From: a virus
Length of the DNA stretch: 36,450 nucleotides
Reading direction: 5' to 3' (one strand)
Virus record (IMG/VR): IMGVR_UViG_3300013094_000137
Location: 1 to 36,450 of that record
Made by a program: the position numbers and the translations under genes. Under the pieces are notes generated by a model. The model saw only the letters and a list, made by a program, of their open reading frames with translations. It made no database searches and was not told the origin of the DNA. Positions 11,670-35,523 of the stretch are shown here, piece by piece (within the stretch, counting starts at the first letter, position 1; each line of letters begins with the position of its first letter).

Positions 11670-11677
11670 TATTTATT
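11670..11677 (-). promoter_or_regulatory. Late promoter-like box AATAAATA
   Basis: On the minus strand this reads AATAAATA, 7 of 8 bases of the T4 late consensus. It lies 27 nt upstream of the 836-aa gene and overlaps the stop codon of the 1616-aa gene. Its spacing matches the boxes upstream of gp8 and the 844-aa fibre. Confidence 0.5.
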
Positions 11678-14600
11678 TCGTTACCAGACAAGCTGCGCCG
11701 CCAACAATTTTGAACATGCTATTCAGGAAATATCTCTTATCAGCAGGTTTGCGGAATAGTTTTGCAAGCAACTTATTAAGTGGTTTGAAGTTAAGTTTGC
11801 CGAGATACTTATTCATAAGATAGATACCATAAACTGAACTTCTACCAGCATTTACATATTCAGACATAAATGCATTTACTTCAGCATTTGTGATTAGTCC
11901 TTGTTCAACAGCCAGACGCATCAAACCACCATCGCCAACGATAGATGTTGTACCGAATCCATTAACAATAAATGTTCCGTCACCATCAACCCAAAGATTG
12001 TATACGATGTTTTCATTGCATGCGCTAATCTCTGGTTTTTCGATTTTGTTTGTTTTATCCAACCATGGATACAAACGACCGATTTGTTCTGGATCAACAG
12101 AAAAAAGTTGACCATTTACATACATCGGATGGTTTACAGTAGCAAATGGAGCAAACATTGGAGATGGTGAGTAAAGATTGCCGAATTGAGAACCTTCAGC
12201 AGTCTCAATATACTTGACAGTATTTATTTCTGTTCTGTCATGGTTATAAACTCTGTCATTTACTTTAACATCGCTAATTGGAACTTCTCTACCTGACTCC
12301 AACAGAACATATGCATCGCCGATAAAGCAATGGCAACCGCAACCAGAACCATCGCCGCTGTATGGAGGTGGTGGAGGAATATACTGAACTGTTTGAGTTT
12401 GACCAAGTTGCAACCCAATAATTGTTGCATTTTGAGAAACTGGAATAGAATTGATCACTGTGTTACGAGTTGACAGTATCGATGAACCTGTAGCAAAAGA
12501 AAGTGTAGATCCATAGAAAGTTTCAGATGCTTGAGTTTGAATTGCATCAGCGCCTTGAGTAAGATCTGAAATATCATTCAAAACAAAGTCATTATCTTCT
12601 GATTTAAATGTATTCGCAGGAAGATAGAATTGACCCCAGACGTTACCATTCGCATCACTATAAAGTGGATCACCAAGTATATTTGTATATGCAGCTGGAA
12701 GTGTTGCGCTATTATCTGCAGTATACGATGAGTTAGTTGGCGCACAATAAGCTGAAACAGGAACATTACCGAAATAAGCATAGAGACGAGTATTAGGTTT
12801 CATACCGCTAGCGCTAAACTGAATTGTTGTAGCTTTTAGGTAAGGAAGAATGCTTACATTAGTAACATAATTACCAAGAGTTTGATCGGTGCTAGATGGA
12901 ATTGATGCAGCAAGTTGAGTACCAAATTGTTGCAGCTGAGTTGTTACGTTATTAATAACTTGATTTGTTGTTGTAATATCTTGGCTACCATCAGCATTTG
13001 TAACTGTTGACGTAGAAGAAGCATTAAACAACGTTGGTGTTGTTGTTTGACTGACTGGGAACCAGTTACCCCACTGAGTACCCCAAGCATTTACAAGGTT
13101 AATCCAGTTTGAAGCAAGATCAATGTTGCTTGTGACTGTTGGACCTGATGTAATATCAGGTGCGATAGTTCCAGGAGGTGTTAAAGTAATTGTACCAACC
13201 CAATCATACACATTACCTTCAACACAGTTTCTGTATTTCGAAGCATAATTCTGCGCAGTATACACATTGTTACTTGTGTGATTCAACATAATCAATTCGC
13301 CATGTTTCTCAACACCAGCACTTCTTACTGGATCGAACGAAAATTGGCTTCTCATTTGAACGAAAGCTGGACGCAACTCTGCGCGATGCGTGTCTAATGA
13401 GATATAGTATTGTGGATCTTTGGTGTTTGAGATATCGAATCCTTGGAATGGATCAACAAAGATACCGTTCTGAAAACGATTTTGACCAGTAGTTCCGCTT
13501 CTCACAAGCAAGTTGGAAGCTGATTGCTCAAGTAATGAAAGCGATGTATAGTATTCAAGATTTTTAATTCTATTATCAAGAGCGCCAATATCTTTCATAG
13601 TATAGCGTTTGTTTTGCAACAGTGTTGTTGTAATCGCATAGTCATAACGATTTTGTTCTTTTGCATCTTCTGTTGCGAGAGATGGATATGGAGGAACATT
13701 TACAAGACCAAGAGTCATTGTTCCTGTTTGTTCCAGAGGAGCAATCGGATTTGTAGCTGAAGGAATACCCTCAGTAATAACAAGATTTCCACCAATGTCA
13801 AGAGCAGCTCTGTCAATACGTTGTAAATAATATTGAAGATCTGTTTGGAAATTTGAATCTGGAGCTGGTAAGTGTGGGCTAACGCCAAGAGTCAATGTTG
13901 CTGATGGGTTAATTGTTGCGCCAGAAATAGATGTAGAAACAACAGCTGTATTAACAGCAAAAGGACGATAATCAACTGAATCACGAAGATCGAACACAGT
14001 ACCTTTTGAAGTTGTGTAAGTTGGAATTTCAGCTGTTGTGATAGCGTTTGTGTTCGCCAAATTAACATCATCAATTGGATAGGAGTTAGCTGTGAAGAAA
14101 CCAACACCTTGAGATTGATCGTATGTAAATGTAGTAAGCTGAACAAGGATAGTTGAATTTACATTCAGATGATCAGCTGGTGAATTAGTAGTAAGATTAA
14201 GCGTCGCCAGATCATAATGAGTATCGCGCTGTCCAGTGTTAAAAGTAAAGTTGTTTACGTAATTAACATCACTGTTAGAATAGTTTCCAGCTGTACCGAG
14301 CCAAACACCATCAATGCTATAAACATCTGGTAAACCAAGATTCCATGGACCAATATGACCAGCTATATTGTTAGAGCAGTCAACTTTAACAAAAACATTT
14401 CTGTTAATAATTTTCTTGATAGGAACTGTCTGCGAACGATTTACACTATAGAACACATCAACATTGAATGGTGCTGATGGTGTGTCGCCGATAGAAATTT
14501 GAGCTGATGTTGATGTAACACTAATCGTTCTATTAGCTGGCGACATGTTAATTGGTGAACCAGCAGGGAACACTTTGTAGTGACCATTGGCTGTTTTGCT

Positions 14601-16523
14601 TGTTGTAAATGTTGACTCAACATTCATGTATGTGTTGTTAGCGATAAAGGTAATGAGTCTGTTTTGACCATCAACACCAATATAATCACCAACATTATAA
14701 TCTGATAAGAATGAAGTAGATGAACCGAAAACAGCAACATTGCTATCTGAAACGCCGACAAGACCAGTTAGATTAGCTGTATTACCAGTTGCTGTAGGAA
14801 CGATATAAAAATCTTGAGTTTCTGCAGAAGAAAGAGTGCCAAGATATGGGAATGCTTCGTTACCAGTACCAACAGCTGCAGGGATAGTTACCGATGCATT
14901 ACCTGTTGTTAGGAACTGAGTTGAACCTTTTCTTCTATAAACATACTCTGTGTTGTTAAACCCATTTGATTTGATAGCTCTTTGACCGAATGGGAAAATC
15001 ATACCATTGTTGTATGTCTGTTGCAGAACAGCTGTATAACTTGAAGTTGTTGCATTGTAAGTAAGCACAACGTCAGCGCAACCAGCCATACCACCATTAT
15101 TGTAGATAATACTTCTTACATTGTTGAAGTTTTGACCAGCATTCATTACGATGTTGAACAGATACATACGGTATTGTGCTGATGGCGTACCAATAGTTCC
15201 ATTATCGAAAGAAAATCCACGGATATACGCTGTACCAATTTTAGTTGTATCAGAAAAACTTGTAGAAAGTAATGTACCACTTGTAATTGCTGTTTTTGCT
15301 ACATTATGCAACTCAACTTCGATAACAGAAGTAGAATCACCGAATTCACCAATAAATTCTTGAGTATAAACATAATTACCAAAGTTCGCAGTAACGATTT
15401 GTTGATTTGATAATGCGTAATCTGTGCCTCTGCGCAGCTGAGCGATGTTGTTATTCAGATACTCAACGCGATATCCTTCAACATAGCCCAAACCCTTGCT
15501 AGCAATCAGATTAACATACGATGCATAATTTGGATCTGATGTATTAGCCAAATCTTTTGTATTCAAAACGAACGGAGAAACAACGAAGTCGCCATTTGTC
15601 TCGTATGTGCGGCGAGCGAGTTCTGTACCGATTGTTGAATACTGGGCTGTTTGTTTTACTGTAACAGCTGCACCAGATTTAAAATCTGCCAGAGAAAAGA
15701 ATGAAGTATTGTTAGCAATGTCAGCTGTGTTTCTTACAATAAGCTGAGGAATGATAGCAAGGCGATCAGCTCCTGGAGCTGAATAGTTAGGGCTACCTGC
15801 AGCATTATCATAAAGATCAGTATTTGCAAGAGCTGTTTCAATTGACTCAGCTGCATCAAAACCAACAGAAACACCATCAGGCATATTGTCATATGGTGAC
15901 ACTAAAATTGTCTGTGGTTGGACGTAAAGGAATGTGCCTTTTTTGAAAACAATACCACTGGTTGTCGACATTGCATATCCAAAACCAGTTGGATTACCAA
16001 TGTTAGCATTTGTTGCGTTGCTGCAAACTACGACGTTACCAATTGAAAGATTTGCTGATGTAGCAATAGTGATTGTTTCACCTGGTAAAAATGCAGTTTG
16101 CTGTACGCCATTGGCAAAATTAGCAGCATTAATATACTTAACATAAAGAGTATTTGTATTTGGAGCTTGTGACAGATAACCTTGGTTAGTGTCGACAATG
16201 AGAGCTTTCAAACCATTTGAGTTATAAACATATTGACCGATAAAATCTGTAATCGTAAATGCAACGCTGTTAGCGAATGCGTCATTGATCTTAACATATG
16301 GACGTTTGTTGTCAAATGTAAATGTGCAGCCTTCTACGACTGAACCTTCTTTAAAAACATTGCGACCGAATTTATTGATCTGATCATGAAGAATAGACTG
16401 AATCTGATTTAATTCGCGAGTTTGAACTGCAGCTCCTGGCTTAAACAGAACTCGATAATAATCCGATGTTTCAATAAAATCATCGAAATATGGTTTACGA
16501 GACAGATTCGTTTCTAAAGTCAT
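11673..16523 (-). CDS. Giant baseplate/fibre protein with DUF4815-type N-terminus and C-terminal Hint domain
   Basis: At 1616 aa, the longest gene here. The N-terminus (LSRKPYFDDFIETSDYYRVL, FKPGAAVQTRELNQIQSILH, KFGRNVFKEGSVVEGC) is the hallmark of DUF4815-type phage structural proteins. A long beta-rich body follows. Near residue 1385 a proline-rich PPPPPYSGDGSG linker and a CGCHC cluster lead into a Hint-like domain: Cys1399 (CFIGDAYVLLESG), Thr1462-x-x-His1465 (TVNHP) and an end near NLWVDGDGTFIVNGFG. About 90 helical, basic residues follow. Hint domains cleave or rearrange the peptide bond before their first cysteine, so this protein may be processed. It starts 8 nt after gp8 (AGAGGAAAT before ATG) and sits in the gp9/gp10 region of the T4 order. 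Confident as a structural protein; the processing is inferred. Confidence 0.75.
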   Translation of the reverse strand: MTLETNLSRKPYFDDFIETSDYYRVLFKPGAAVQTRELNQIQSILHDQINKFGRNVFKEGSVVEGCTFTFDNKRPYVKINDAFANSVAFTITDFIGQYVYNSNGLKALIVDTNQGYLSQAPNTNTLYVKYINAANFANGVQQTAFLPGETITIATSANLSIGNVVVCSNATNANIGNPTGFGYAMSTTSGIVFKKGTFLYVQPQTILVSPYDNMPDGVSVGFDAAESIETALANTDLYDNAAGSPNYSAPGADRLAIIPQLIVRNTADIANNTSFFSLADFKSGAAVTVKQTAQYSTIGTELARRTYETNGDFVVSPFVLNTKDLANTSDPNYASYVNLIASKGLGYVEGYRVEYLNNNIAQLRRGTDYALSNQQIVTANFGNYVYTQEFIGEFGDSTSVIEVELHNVAKTAITSGTLLSTSFSDTTKIGTAYIRGFSFDNGTIGTPSAQYRMYLFNIVMNAGQNFNNVRSIIYNNGGMAGCADVVLTYNATTSSYTAVLQQTYNNGMIFPFGQRAIKSNGFNNTEYVYRRKGSTQFLTTGNASVTIPAAVGTGNEAFPYLGTLSSAETQDFYIVPTATGNTANLTGLVGVSDSNVAVFGSSTSFLSDYNVGDYIGVDGQNRLITFIANNTYMNVESTFTTSKTANGHYKVFPAGSPINMSPANRTISVTSTSAQISIGDTPSAPFNVDVFYSVNRSQTVPIKKIINRNVFVKVDCSNNIAGHIGPWNLGLPDVYSIDGVWLGTAGNYSNSDVNYVNNFTFNTGQRDTHYDLATLNLTTNSPADHLNVNSTILVQLTTFTYDQSQGVGFFTANSYPIDDVNLANTNAITTAEIPTYTTSKGTVFDLRDSVDYRPFAVNTAVVSTSISGATINPSATLTLGVSPHLPAPDSNFQTDLQYYLQRIDRAALDIGGNLVITEGIPSATNPIAPLEQTGTMTLGLVNVPPYPSLATEDAKEQNRYDYAITTTLLQNKRYTMKDIGALDNRIKNLEYYTSLSLLEQSASNLLVRSGTTGQNRFQNGIFVDPFQGFDISNTKDPQYYISLDTHRAELRPAFVQMRSQFSFDPVRSAGVEKHGELIMLNHTSNNVYTAQNYASKYRNCVEGNVYDWVGTITLTPPGTIAPDITSGPTVTSNIDLASNWINLVNAWGTQWGNWFPVSQTTTPTLFNASSTSTVTNADGSQDITTTNQVINNVTTQLQQFGTQLAASIPSSTDQTLGNYVTNVSILPYLKATTIQFSASGMKPNTRLYAYFGNVPVSAYCAPTNSSYTADNSATLPAAYTNILGDPLYSDANGNVWGQFYLPANTFKSEDNDFVLNDISDLTQGADAIQTQASETFYGSTLSFATGSSILSTRNTVINSIPVSQNATIIGLQLGQTQTVQYIPPPPPYSGDGSGCGCHCFIGDAYVLLESGREVPISDVKVNDRVYNHDRTEINTVKYIETAEGSQFGNLYSPSPMFAPFATVNHPMYVNGQLFSVDPEQIGRLYPWLDKTNKIEKPEISACNENIVYNLWVDGDGTFIVNGFGTTSIVGDGGLMRLAVEQGLITNAEVNAFMSEYVNAGRSSVYGIYLMNKYLGKLNFKPLNKLLAKLFRKPADKRYFLNSMFKIVGGAACLVTK
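11952..12329 (-). other. Hint (Hedgehog/intein-type) domain coding region
   Basis: This covers residues about 1399-1524 of the 1616-aa protein. Visible landmarks are the first cysteine in CFIGDAYVLLESGREVPISD, VNDRVYNHD, the TxxH block as TVNHP (Thr1462, His1465), and a final NLWVDGDGTFIVNGFG. The usual intein end, His-Asn before Cys/Ser/Thr, is replaced by Val-Asn-Gly (Asn1521). This fits Hedgehog or bacterial intein-like Hint domains that cleave or transfer at the first cysteine without full splicing. No homing endonuclease is inserted. Confidence 0.7.
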
Positions 16524-30826: not shown

Positions 30827-31630
30827 ATGGCATTTAGTGTATCAGATATACTGGGTAGCATAACAGAAAGCGGAGTACTGCATAGCAATAAATTTATATT
30901 GCAAATGAACTCCCCTCCTGTTTTGCGCAATGTTTCGATCAACGGAACAACAGCACAGGACACAGAATATCTGATGGTAATTCGTGCAGAACAGGCAAAA
31001 CTGCCTGGAGTATTAATTGAAACAACAGACGTAAATCGTTATGGTGTTGGACCTAATCAGAAAATGCCATTTAATGTGCAGTTTACCGACACAAGTTTAA
31101 CATTTGTTTCTGACAAAAATGGTGAGTTATATCGTTATTTCTACACATGGTTAAATGCTATTTTTGATTTCGGTGGTATCAACAACACCAATACTCTTGC
31201 CACATACAAAACGGATTACAAAGACAACTACACGACAGATTTACATATCTACGTTTATAACAATTTTGGAGATATTGTTCAGGGTGTTACTCTGTTCAAA
31301 GCATATCCCGTTTCATTTAATGAAGTTTCACTTGACTGGGGTCAAACAAACCAACTTATGAAGTTTACTGTCGGATTTACTTTCCGTGATTGGAAACTTG
31401 ATGACGTTAGTGCAAGCTTACCTTCTGTTCAAATAACAACTGACACAACTCAACAGCTTACCACTAACCCAGTCGTTCAACAAACACCTTCGATTACAAC
31501 ACCACAAACTGATGTAAGTAAATATAACACAGTTATTCAATCAGGATTAAATGCATTGAATGATGCTGGTATAAGCATACCGCCTGGATCTGGATTACCT
31601 GGAGACGTTAAGAGCGCACCAACTGACTAA
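30827..31630 (+). CDS. 54: Tail tube-fold protein, gp54/gp19-like (baseplate-tube junction)
   Basis: A 267-aa protein. Residues about 20-195 have the beta layout of tail tube proteins: NKFILQMNSPPVLRN, AEQAKLPGVLIETTDVNRYG, MPFNVQFTDTSLTFVSDKNG, LYRYFYTWLNAIFDF, then LFKAYPVSFNEVSLDWGQTN and LMKFTVGFTFRDW. This order matches both gp19 (tube) and gp54 (junction) in T4. Placement in the hub cluster and the extra C-terminal region (about 200-267, rich in Thr/Gln/Pro and ending in GISIPPGSGLPGDVKSAPTD) favour gp54 over the main tube protein. gp54 seats the first tube ring on gp48. gp54 is the best fit; a tube paralogue cannot be excluded. Confidence 0.7.
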   Translation: MAFSVSDILGSITESGVLHSNKFILQMNSPPVLRNVSINGTTAQDTEYLMVIRAEQAKLPGVLIETTDVNRYGVGPNQKMPFNVQFTDTSLTFVSDKNGELYRYFYTWLNAIFDFGGINNTNTLATYKTDYKDNYTTDLHIYVYNNFGDIVQGVTLFKAYPVSFNEVSLDWGQTNQLMKFTVGFTFRDWKLDDVSASLPSVQITTDTTQQLTTNPVVQQTPSITTPQTDVSKYNTVIQSGLNALNDAGISIPPGSGLPGDVKSAPTD

Positions 31631-31653: not shown

Positions 31654-32364
31654 ATGGCATTACCTAAAATTTCACATCCTACTTTTTTTGTTGAAGTTCC
31701 TTCTACAAAAAAGAACGTAACCTTTCGCCCATTTCTTGTAAAAGAAGAAAAGCTCTTGCTTATGGCAAAAGCCAGTGGTGAAGAGTCGGATATGCTTGCT
31801 ACAATCAAACAGATTGTTAACAACTGTGCAATCGACGAAGGATTTGATGTTAATAAACTTTCTCTGTTTGACATGGAATATCTGTTTATTAAGATTAGAG
31901 CAAGTTCCGTTTCAGATATTGTGGATGTTTCATTTAAAGATTTAGAGGATGAGAAAATTTATGACTTTTCAATCAATCTTAATCAGGTGGTTGTTAAGTT
32001 CCCAGATAATACCAGTAATGTGATTAAAGTTACTGATGATTTTGGTATTACAATGAAATACCCACAAGCTTCTCTGTATGATGATAAGGAATTTCTTAAC
32101 TCTGGTGAAGATTCATTCTTTCAGCTTATCATTCGCTGCATAGACAAAATCTATAATGGCGATGAAGTTATCGATGCTCAGAATTATACCACAAAAGATT
32201 TGGGTGAGTTTATTGAAGATCTTGATGTTAAAACATTCGAATTGATTCGAGATTTCATTGTTAACCCACCAACACTTTATTATATGTTAAAATATAAGAA
32301 TTCACTTGGAAACGATAAAGAAATTGAATTACGCACGTTATCCGATTTTTTTACCTTGCGCTGA
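31654..32364 (+). CDS. 26: Baseplate hub assembly chaperone gp26-like (T4_baseplate family)
   Basis: A 236-aa protein; the ATG at 31654 follows GGAG with 7-nt spacing and is preferred to an upstream TTG. The sequence (VTFRPFLVKEEKLLLMAKAS, IKQIVNNCAIDEGFDVNKLS, LFDMEYLFIKIRASSVSDIV) is the signature of the T4 gp26 baseplate family. T4 gp26 (208 aa) acts in hub assembly. The last codons are TCC GAT TTT TTT ACC TTG CGC TGA: the seven T residues at 32346-32352 form a perfect -1 slip site, and the -1 frame continues for 61 codons with no start of its own. This is the arrangement of tail assembly chaperone pairs such as lambda G/GT, lying before a tape-measure-like gene as expected. Confidence 0.85.
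   Translation: MALPKISHPTFFVEVPSTKKNVTFRPFLVKEEKLLLMAKASGEESDMLATIKQIVNNCAIDEGFDVNKLSLFDMEYLFIKIRASSVSDIVDVSFKDLEDEKIYDFSINLNQVVVKFPDNTSNVIKVTDDFGITMKYPQASLYDDKEFLNSGEDSFFQLIIRCIDKIYNGDEVIDAQNYTTKDLGEFIEDLDVKTFELIRDFIVNPPTLYYMLKYKNSLGNDKEIELRTLSDFFTLR
32346..32352 (+). promoter_or_regulatory. Candidate programmed -1 frameshift site T TTT TTT
   Basis: In the gp26 frame this is gaT TTT TTT acc, so both the A-site and P-site phenylalanine tRNAs re-pair perfectly after moving back one base. The zero-frame stop follows 9 nt later and the -1 frame stays open to 32535. I did not find an obvious stem-loop downstream by eye. Confidence 0.65.
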
Positions 32365-32537
32365 GTCATAATACCTTAGAGAATTACTATAAAACAGTAT
32401 TCTCTTTGATTCAGCACCATAAATATTCTTTGACAGAAATTGAAAATCTTATACCATTCGAACGTGATTTGTATGTAGAAATGTTATTGCAACTTCTTCA
32501 AGAACTAGAAGAACAACAGAGGTTACAAAATGGCTAA
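32352..32537 (+). CDS. -1 frame extension of gp26 (tail assembly chaperone, frameshift part)
   Basis: After a -1 slip the frame reads 61 codons: YLALSHNTLENYYKTVFSLI, then QHHKYSLTEIENLIPFERDL, then YVEMLLQLLQELEEQQRLQN and G, ending at TAA 32535-32537. It has the look of a true protein: amphipathic helices, a LIPFERD-type motif of the kind seen in phage tail chaperone tails, and no rare-residue noise. In this frame the nearest upstream stop is at 32325-32327, and the only ATG (32481) is too far downstream to start it. The fusion would be about 294 aa. It overlaps the next start by 8 nt. T4 gp51, the hub assembly factor, is much longer (249 aa), so equivalence to gp51 is not claimed. Confidence 0.65.
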   Translation, partial: YLALSHNTLENYYKTVFSLIQHHKYSLTEIENLIPFERDLYVEMLLQLLQELEEQQRLQNG

Positions 32538-33054
32538 ATTCGCAAAGAGCGCTGACGATGAACCAGCTCCACCAGTTGAAAGAGAGCTTCCTGCTTCTCC
32601 TACAGCAGCACCCGCACCTATTGTTGTGGCTGTGGCTGCTGGCGGTGGTAGCGGCGGTGGCTGTTCTAGTAGCAGCGGTAATACTAATTTTCAAGCTGCG
32701 CAAGCTACTGCGGCAGCTCAAGCTACAGCGTCAGTTGGCTTGGCGCAAACGGCTATTGATAAAGAAGTCGTTGACGAACAGATATCTAAAGAAGAAGAAC
32801 ATTGGGTAAAAGCATATTGGCGTCCAGCTATGGGCTGGCTGTATATGTTGATTTGCTTTATGGACTTTATAGGATTTCCACTAATATCAATGTTCCTACC
32901 AGTTTTATTTAAAGGACTTGGCGTACAATACCAATACGTTGCATGGCAAAGTTTGTCATTGAGCAATGGTGGTTTGATTCATTTGGCATTTGGTGCTATC
33001 CTTGGTGTTTCGGCATGGACAAGAGGTCAAGAAAAACTAGCAAAGATAAACTAA
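32530..33054 (+). CDS. Small membrane protein, holin-like, in the hub/tape-measure cluster
   Basis: A 174-aa protein starting 8 nt inside the gp26 extension, after AGAGG. Residues 1-75 are low-complexity Pro/Ala/Gly/Ser-rich (VAAGGGSGGGCSSSSGN) with an Ala/Gln-rich stretch. Residues 91-170 form a conserved membrane part: HWVKAYWRPAMGWLYMLICF then MDFIGFPLISMFLPVLF, and LSNGGLIHLAFGAILGVSAW before a charged tail. This W-RP-x-x-GW...GGLIHLAFGAILGVSAWTRG pattern resembles three-segment holin proteins such as the GTA-type holin family. A lysis holin or a membrane-interacting partner of the adjacent hydrolase-bearing protein are both possible. It is followed after 3 nt by that gene. Confidence 0.6.
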   Translation: MAKFAKSADDEPAPPVERELPASPTAAPAPIVVAVAAGGGSGGGCSSSSGNTNFQAAQATAAAQATASVGLAQTAIDKEVVDEQISKEEEHWVKAYWRPAMGWLYMLICFMDFIGFPLISMFLPVLFKGLGVQYQYVAWQSLSLSNGGLIHLAFGAILGVSAWTRGQEKLAKIN

Positions 33055-33057
33055 TAG

Positions 33058-35523
33058 ATGGCTAAGAAACCTAAAAATCCAGAACCACTTAAACTATCGG
33101 ATATTCCAGCCGATCAGATGACACCAGCTATTCGCGCACAGGTTGCAGCTGCTCAAGCTCAAATTGCTGCAGCTGCATCTATTTCCGAATCCGCTGAAGA
33201 AATAGCTCAAGCTACTGAAGAAGCATTAAAACCAGAGAAAACAAAAACTCTAAAACAATCTGCTCGTGAAACGAACATTCAAACATTTGAGAAAGTTTTT
33301 CCATCTCTAACCAAGTTACTTGATTCTGTTGCTCAGAGCAAAGAAGAAAGAGATAAGAAAAATCAGGCAGACGAAAGAGCTGCCGAACAAGCAAAACTTG
33401 CTATGGAAGAACTTACTGACAAGCAAGATGATGCTAATTTAGAATTAAAAAACATCACCACACAAATAAAGTCGACTAACAAATCTCTTGGTGATATTAC
33501 CAAAGTTTTGGTTGAAATTAAAACAGCCATTCAGCAATTGGGTAACAATGGCAGTGGACTTAGCCCACTCGATTTTCTTGATGAAGGTAAAGGTGCTCGT
33601 CGCGGACTTGGTAAAAGTGTAGCGAAAGGTGGCGCAAGAGGCGCAGCGCGTGGCGCTGTTCGCGAACTTGGTGGTGGCTCGCTATTAAAAGGTGTTGGTA
33701 AAATAGGCGGTGGCGCTCTCCTTGGCGGTGGTCTTGAAGCATATGATGAATACCAACAATCAGGTAATGTAGGAAGAGCTGCTAGTGCTGGTGTTGGTGG
33801 AACAGCTGGTGGTGCTCTTGGCGCATGGGGTGGCGCGGCTGCTGGTGCTGCTCTCGGATCTGTTGTTCCTATTGTAGGAACTGCTATTGGTGGTACTATT
33901 GGAGCTATTCTCGGCGGCATGGGCGGAAGCATGCTCGGTGGTTCAGCTGGTAAGGGAGTATATGATTATGCTACAAAACCATCTACTCCTGGACAATCAA
34001 ACGCGATTGCTTCTCTCGAGGAAAAACAAAAAGCTGCTGAAAAAGAAAAAGATTTAAACGATCTTACATTTACAGCAAAATCTGTTACGTTCAAAGCTGA
34101 CACAATCAGTTTCAATTCAACTAATATGTCAACTGGGCAACAGCAACAAACAGGCGCTCAGCAACAAGCATCAACCACAACTCCATCCGTTCCTTCAGGT
34201 GGTGCTACACAAGCTGTTGCGCCGCAGGGTGGTACAGGCGCTGCTCCGACTGGATCTGGTGCTGGTGGGGGTACAGGCGCTGCTGGTGGCGAAGCTGGTG
34301 CTGGTGGTGTTGATCAAGTTCTTGCTACAATCAGAAAAAGAGAATCGGGCGGTAATTATAATGCTCGAGCAAAAGGATCATCTGCTTCTGGTGCTTATCA
34401 ATTTATCGACAGCACATGGCAAAGTCTTACTCGAAAATATAAAATCGGTGGTGAATATAAGAGCGCAGGCAGCGCTCCCGCACAGATTCAAGATCAAGTT
34501 GCAAGAGCATATGTTTCAGACATTTTAAAACAAAATGGTGGTGACGTATCAAAAGTTCCATTAGTTTGGTATACTGGTAACGCTCAGGGGCAAATGTCTG
34601 CGAAAGCATTAGCTGCCAATGGTGGAATGACAGCACAAGCTTATCAATCTAAGTGGATGAATGATTTTTCTAAAACTGGTGGTGGTGGTGTGACTGCTTC
34701 TACTGGCGCATTAGGTCCAGGAGATAATCGTGCAGCTGCTCGCAGAATGGAAATGGGTAGCGGTCAAGTAGGTGCTGGTGCTGGTGGAGCTCCAACTAAT
34801 TTGGGCGCCGAAAGTGGCAGAATGTCAATAGGTGGAATGGATGGTGTTAGCCCAGCGCTGGCTGAAGCTTTAAGTGCTGCAGCATCCGAATATTTTCAAG
34901 CAACTGGTAAAAAGATTCAAGTTACTTCTGGTAGAAGAGATTCGCAAAAACAAGCTAAACTCTATCAAGATTATATTTCTGGAAAATCTCCATATCCCGC
35001 AGCGAAACCTGGCACAAGCAAACATGAACGTGGATTAGCTGCAGACATTAATCGTGCCGATGCAGATGCTATGGATAAAATGGGCATTCTTGCTCGTCAT
35101 GGATTACATCGCCCAGTAAGAGGCGATCCAGTCCATATCGAATACATGGGTGGTGGTCCATCTGGTGAACAAATAGCGGAGGCTATGCCAAAACCACAAA
35201 TTACAAGTAGCAGCACATTAACGCCGAAGGAAAGCTCAACATTATCCACTGCGATGGGTCCACGTGGTAATCTCTCTGATGCATCAGCTGCTCTACAACC
35301 AAACAAACCGACCAAAGGTACACAGCTTTCAACTGCAAGTACGAACGATCAAGTCAGTCAAAGATCATCTTCGACTGCTCTTCAACAATCACAATCAACT
35401 CCTAAAACTGCAGCACCGAAAGGTAAAGATGTTGAAGGTAAGTTTGATTCAAGCAATGCTGGGCATGTTGAACCAATTGATGCTTCGAAAAGATTTAAAG
35501 ATCTTTATGAACTTGGGGAATAA
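33058..35523 (+). CDS. Tape measure/hub-like protein with transglycosylase-like and M15 peptidase domains
   Basis: An 821-aa protein. Residues about 30-160 are Ala/Gln/Lys-rich coiled coil (QSKEERDKKNQADERAAEQA). Residues 180-300 are glycine-zipper, membrane-active-looking (GGALGAWGGAAAGAALGSVV). Residues about 420-535 form a lysozyme-like/SLT-type domain with catalytic Glu429 in RKRESGGNYNA and GAYQFIDSTWQSL. Residues about 590-698 form an M15/VanY-type zinc peptidase: TSGRRDSQKQAKLYQ, SKHERGLAADIN and VHIEY give ligands His656, Asp663 and His693. So it should cut both glycan strands and stem peptides of peptidoglycan, replacing the lysozyme missing from the gp5-like protein. A Ser/Thr/Gln-rich tail follows. 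Position after a chaperone frameshift pair suggests the tape measure (gp29 role). Confidence 0.78.
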   Translation: MAKKPKNPEPLKLSDIPADQMTPAIRAQVAAAQAQIAAAASISESAEEIAQATEEALKPEKTKTLKQSARETNIQTFEKVFPSLTKLLDSVAQSKEERDKKNQADERAAEQAKLAMEELTDKQDDANLELKNITTQIKSTNKSLGDITKVLVEIKTAIQQLGNNGSGLSPLDFLDEGKGARRGLGKSVAKGGARGAARGAVRELGGGSLLKGVGKIGGGALLGGGLEAYDEYQQSGNVGRAASAGVGGTAGGALGAWGGAAAGAALGSVVPIVGTAIGGTIGAILGGMGGSMLGGSAGKGVYDYATKPSTPGQSNAIASLEEKQKAAEKEKDLNDLTFTAKSVTFKADTISFNSTNMSTGQQQQTGAQQQASTTTPSVPSGGATQAVAPQGGTGAAPTGSGAGGGTGAAGGEAGAGGVDQVLATIRKRESGGNYNARAKGSSASGAYQFIDSTWQSLTRKYKIGGEYKSAGSAPAQIQDQVARAYVSDILKQNGGDVSKVPLVWYTGNAQGQMSAKALAANGGMTAQAYQSKWMNDFSKTGGGGVTASTGALGPGDNRAAARRMEMGSGQVGAGAGGAPTNLGAESGRMSIGGMDGVSPALAEALSAAASEYFQATGKKIQVTSGRRDSQKQAKLYQDYISGKSPYPAAKPGTSKHERGLAADINRADADAMDKMGILARHGLHRPVRGDPVHIEYMGGGPSGEQIAEAMPKPQITSSSTLTPKESSTLSTAMGPRGNLSDASAALQPNKPTKGTQLSTASTNDQVSQRSSSTALQQSQSTPKTAAPKGKDVEGKFDSSNAGHVEPIDASKRFKDLYELGE

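Follow-up and report, generated by a model that had tools for sequence, protein, structure and literature searches.

A conserved in-phase slip site and −1 frame at the 3' end of gp26 point to a frameshifted tail-assembly-chaperone pair in T4-like phages

The window analyzed in this study is the whole 36,450-nt stretch of the IMG/VR record IMGVR_UViG_3300013094_000137, and all coordinates are window positions. The gp26-type gene (Table 1) matched Pfam PF12322 (T4_baseplate; E 1.3e-53) and phrog_150 (baseplate hub; E 1.4e-59). The genes around it follow the order of the G/GT class, with the tail tube gene 5' of gp26 and the tape measure gene 3' of it; a single holin-like gene separates gp26 from the latter. 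The holin-like gene is GTA_holin_3TM-like, with a PF11351 match falling just under the cut-off. The tape-measure-like gene expected downstream by the initial annotation is indeed present, two genes 3' of the gp26-type gene, and its product is the presumed client of the chaperones. This protein combines the VanY domain with an endolysin-like match (phrog_13118) and, given both, may also cut the cell wall. Elsewhere in the window, a 1616-aa protein (DUF4815) encoded on the minus strand (11673-16523) has a C-terminal stretch that appeared Hedgehog/intein (Hint)-like by eye (CHCFIGDAYVLLESG...); a Pfam search of this protein returned no match to a Hint domain.

Table 1. Features of the gp26/gp51 locus and its surroundings (window positions).
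Feature	Position	Strand	Evidence
Tail tube gene	30827-31630		phrog_45, E 1e-32
gp26-type gene, short tail assembly chaperone (TAC-N, 236 aa)	31654..32364	+	PF12322, phrog_150
Final −1-frame in-frame stop 5' of the slip site, TGA	32325..32327	+	sequence
Slippery heptamer T TTT TTT	32346..32352	+	sequence; in phase with gp26
−1-frame extension (gp51 / TAC-C domain): 61 codons and a stop, lacking its own start	32352..32538	+	phrog_634; purifying selection in the −1 frame only
Spacer from heptamer to stem, 7 nt	32353..32359	+	fold
5' arm of conserved 9-bp stem (GCUGAGUCA), includes the 0-frame stop codon	32360..32368	+	fold and covariation
0-frame stop TGA, terminates the short product	32362..32364	+	sequence
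3' arm of conserved stem (UGAUUCAGC)	32407..32415	+	fold, covariation and RNAalifold
Holin-like gene, overlaps the end of the −1 frame	32530..33054	+	phrog_3427 holin, E 2.5e-6; PF11351, E 8.8e-5
Tape-measure-like gene with VanY-type peptidase domain	33058..35523	+	phrog_794 tail length tape measure, E 2.6e-16; PF02557 VanY, E 9.8e-7

The 3' end of the gp26-type gene is read GAT (from 32344) TTT TTT ACC TTG CGC TGA. The −1 frame opens with the codon TAC, which overlaps the heptamer by its first base, and ends with TAA (32536-32538). The heptamer and the 61-codon start-less frame thus lie where the initial annotation had placed them. The closest upstream −1-frame stop lies 18 nt before the heptamer, rather than the 19 nt given in that annotation. 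Between this stop and codon 18 of the −1 frame, the window contains no ATG, GTG, or TTG. The earliest candidate start is a TTG at codon 18, which lacks a Shine-Dalgarno sequence, and the first ATG is codon 43. The product of the frame was also said to look like a real helical protein. The frame is not anonymous, since it matches phrog_634 (baseplate hub assembly catalyst, gp51) with an E value of 1.4e-24, and it evolves as a protein. Among the close relatives of the window, pN/pS was 0.24 for codons 5-45 of the −1 frame and 0.28 for codons 5-13, a segment that in the window ends before any start codon is reached. The two remaining reading frames of this DNA gave 1.2 and 2.2. These ratios point to protein-level selection acting on the −1 frame from the slip site onward, upstream of any start codon.

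The slip site was compared across 96 frameshift loci from viral-contig relatives and isolate phage genomes, of which 74 were distinct at <80% identity and served as representatives. Few loci came from viral-contig scans with KVP40-, Aeromonas-, Rhizobium-, and Ackermann-type gp26; one further locus (L008) is cut by a contig edge and was uninformative on frame. All 96 loci, found in cyanophages, vibriophages, Aeromonas phages, rhizobiophages, and other groups, had gp51 in the −1 frame and an in-phase NNT TTT TTN located 2-5 codons 5' of the gp26 stop, with the 0-frame stop 0-3 codons past the slip codons. The residue preceding Phe-Phe varies (Asp, Ser, Asn, or Ala). Its codon (GAT, AGT, TCT, AAT, or GCT) ended in T in 74 of the 74 representatives, for which log10 P was −15.4 given the amino acids. 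The first Phe codon was likewise TTT in every representative (log10 P = −13.7), compared to a TTT share of 65% among Phe codons outside the site, and the full heptamer occurred at 1 of the 63 other Phe-Phe pairs of the same gp26 genes. The T-ending codon, the invariant TTT, and the rarity of the heptamer at other pairs indicate that the T run is not due to chance. About half of the representatives have the form T TTT TTC, and one locus (L059) reads T TTT TTA. A second run of seven T is present early in the window's gp26-type gene (31683-31689), in phase by arithmetic; since early sites of this type are not conserved, this run provides an internal control. The in-phase X XXY YYZ heptamer by which programmed −1 frameshifting is recognized is conserved across the relatives. 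Relatives have retained both the T run and the −1 frame, with the synonymous-site constraint that the initial annotation had suggested looking for. Neither an intact ATG and ribosome-binding site for the −1 frame nor a broken T run with the frame kept emerged as a rule.

Two types of candidate stimulatory element flank the heptamer. In the window, the sequence downstream of the heptamer folds into a stem that is more stable than those of shuffled sequences (z = −3.0). In an alignment of 30 sequences, 94.1% of the pair cells of this stem were standard, four of the nine pairs had changed on both sides, and the covariation score was reached by none of 500 shuffles. Pairing fell to 20-39% in slid controls, in which the partner was moved by 1-3 columns, and RNAalifold recovered eight of the nine pairs unprompted. 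The background rate of stems with the same geometry was 0.4%. The arms also encode the conserved residues LSH and QHH, which accounts for part of their invariance; synonymous choices within the arms follow the pairing. An inner hairpin (32378-32388/32396-32405) folds well in the window, but was not predicted by RNAalifold on the 30 relatives and is therefore not claimed. Most cyanophage-like relatives lack the 9-bp stem and have a Shine-Dalgarno (SD)-like motif upstream of the heptamer. Such a motif was found in 28 of the 74 representatives (1.1 expected), and where it reads GGAGGG (14 loci) it always lies exactly 9 nt 5' of the heptamer. Stimulators of −1 frameshifting are expected 5-9 nt 3' of the heptamer (stem) or about 10 nt 5' of it (SD-like motif); the stem of the window, at 7 nt, and the GGAGGG of relatives, at 9 nt, fit this spacing. 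The two elements are nearly exclusive and co-occur rarely: 26 representatives have the stem only, 26 the SD-like motif only, 2 both, and 20 neither. Five cyanophage-type loci (L045, L069, L078, L080, and L083) have perfect local hairpins of 9-14 bp shortly past the slip site in place of the long-range stem, a possible third type of stimulator.

These data make it very probable that the gp26/gp51 locus encodes a short/long pair of tail assembly chaperones produced by programmed −1 frameshifting. At the sequence level, the slip site, the −1 frame, the selection on that frame, and the stem all appear as conserved features; from them we infer slippage of ribosomes at the heptamer, its frequency, and the chaperone function of the products. 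According to the proposed mechanism, most ribosomes would terminate at the gp26 stop (32362), yielding a short form comparable to lambda G (TAC-N). A minority would pause at the stem that starts 7 nt past T TTT TTT, slip by −1, and read the 61-codon frame, yielding a 294-residue long form comparable to lambda GT (TAC-NC), whose additional three-helix domain would be gp51. On the model of G/GT, both would coat the tape measure protein and guide tail assembly. The initial annotation was probably right to link gp26 with the G/GT class.

Public records offer another reading, in which ribosomes reinitiate past the gp26 stop and gp51 is a small protein in its own right. Among the records examined, gp51 is listed as a stand-alone "hub assembly catalyst" of 43-60 residues, for example in cyanophage, rhizobiophage, and Caulobacter phage genomes. 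An ATG lies 2 nt past the stop in one cyanophage clade, and TAATG or TGATG overlaps occur in several phages. Since an ATG is present within the first six −1-frame codons of 33 of the 96 loci, reinitiation is possible at these loci. Against this reading, the annotated gp51 starts vary between phages, the window offers no start before codon 18 and no Shine-Dalgarno sequence, and conservation of the −1 frame sets in at the slip site, ahead of any start. Reinitiation also gives no reason to conserve T TTT TTY, and T4 gp51 is a full-length fusion rather than a free C-terminal domain. We consider reinitiation very unlikely as the general explanation. The stand-alone gp51 entries are most likely the C-terminal part of the frameshift product, and their annotation should be corrected on that account.

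Slippage of RNA polymerase on the T run, which would generate mRNAs with one T too many or too few, could draw on the homopolymer of at least six T present in every frameshift locus. The T TTT TTC form caps the run at six T in about half of the representatives, a length that is short for the polymerase, and signals of the ribosomal type, the stem at 7 nt and the SD-like motif 9 nt upstream, would be superfluous. Transcriptional slippage is accordingly hard to credit. A sequencing or assembly error in a truly in-frame gp26-gp51 fusion, for which the in-frame long form of T4-type phages is a precedent, is refuted by the comparative data. Contigs and isolate records that are independent of one another, about 90 in number and produced by different laboratories, show the same T run and frame relation, and each of the 96 loci has a 0-frame stop 0-3 codons past the site.

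Phage T4 has gene 26 (208 aa) on one strand and a separate gene 51 (249 aa) on the other. Profile alignment identified the two proteins as paralogues (181 columns, E 5.8e-15). The hypothetical fusion product of the window aligned to T4 gp51 along its length (245 columns, E 5.3e-21). For the −1-frame extension, the C-terminus of T4 gp51 was the only part that aligned. By sequence, a short and a long form therefore share the whole N-terminal domain, the long form being represented by the −1 extension in the window and by gp51 in T4. T4 gp51 is needed for assembly and is not found in the particle (PMC3004832). The initial annotation had taken the T4-type gp26 of this phage to work as a short/long pair through slippage. 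T4 itself does not use the slip; it lacks the site and has two paralogous genes, 26 for the short form and 51 for the long one. T4-type gp26 keeps Phe-Phe, written GAG TTC TTT, so that the T run is gone. The site reads TTC CTT in JSE, and several other split genera likewise have no slip site. KP15 gp26 retains TTT TTA without the preceding T. In this Klebsiella phage (L119, Slopekvirus), genes 51 and 26 lie in tandem on one strand, with 51 ahead of 26, and gp26 reads CAA TTT TTA, an arrangement that is possibly an intermediate or a separate rearrangement of the split pair. Where gp51 is encoded by a gene of its own, the slip site has disappeared, and T4 serves as a natural control. T4 26/51 would be a clear case in which a recoding signal was replaced by two genes and the slip site was lost afterwards.

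In AlphaFold models, the window's gp26 (mean pLDDT 91) and a T4-type gp51 (85) share one order of elements, to which gp51 adds C-terminal helices. The gp51 model matched gp26-family models and, weakly, a protein of phage Moon annotated "Tape measure chaperone". The gp26 model weakly matched the solved HK97 chaperone 2ob9 (probability 0.51-0.57, the top probability among the 50 solved matches listed, E about 1). A sequence search of the PDB with the gp26 and gp51 profiles gave chance hits only.

A variant of the locus was found in seven phages in or near the Ackermannviridae (L093, L113-L116, L118, and L122), which have a conserved gp51-like −1 frame at the 3' end of gp26. The −1-frame motif is MPWHLD (APWQVL in BX-1), and gp26 lacks the full heptamer, the only conserved in-phase element being a T TTY tetramer. 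The −1 frame of these phages may be reached by slippage or by reinitiation. Several of the Ackermannviridae annotations examined omit gp51; the Kuttervirus record (L113) shows no annotated gene on this strand over the gp51-like −1 frame. Taken together, the comparisons lead us to lean slightly toward the view that one slip site is served by two interchangeable, near-exclusive stimulators, the downstream covarying stem in the window's clade and the upstream SD-like GGAGGG in cyanophage-like clades, in one homologous chaperone gene, and that the Ackermannviridae encode gp51 in the −1 frame with the U_UUY tetramer only. If so, the family would offer a natural series for the turnover of frameshift signals, ending with T4, in which gene duplication would have replaced them.

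Frameshifting is reportedly conserved in several T4-like groups, and the T4 group reportedly has separate genes. Tail chaperone genes of T4-like phages were identified by Vladimirov, Gautam and Davidson (2022, Virology 566:9-15), according to the papers citing that work (PMC10885494, PMC12846349). As cited there, poly-T runs are known to act as −1 signals in the TAC-N genes of T4-like phages (PMC12846349), and some of these phages carry a short gene plus a longer fusion gene in place of frameshifting (PMC10885494). On these accounts, the core of our finding is already published; the initial annotation knew of no description for T4 gp26 itself. In our reading of these accounts, the TAC-N/TAC-NC genes are genes 26 and 51, and the window is a further example of a published type of T4-like frameshift rather than a new phenomenon. 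The present analysis provides independent comparative confirmation of T4-type gp26/gp51 as a chaperone pair of the G/GT type. The two alternative stimulators and the unannotated −1-frame gp51 of the Ackermannviridae are possibly new.

Lambda G/GT (Xu, Hendrix & Duda 2004) reportedly consists of a short form and a −1 frameshifted long form. The window shares with it this design and the position 5' of the tape measure gene; it differs by the holin-like gene that separates chaperone and tape measure genes. The lambda slip sequence also differs from that of the window. In E. coli dnaX, the heptamer A AAA AAG is combined with both an upstream SD-like element and a downstream stem. The gp26/gp51 family has a heptamer with the same kinds of stimulators, but usually only one of the two. 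Of the T4 proteins, gp26 is a homologue of the short form and gp51 of the whole frameshift product; their genes are separate, lie on opposite strands, and have no slip site. The T4-like TAC-N/TAC-NC systems, as described in the papers citing Vladimirov et al. (2022), have the same short/long design and the same poly-T signals as the window. The window phage would be an uncharacterized member of this group, for which the stem, the SD-like element, and the Ackermannviridae version were derived in the present analysis.
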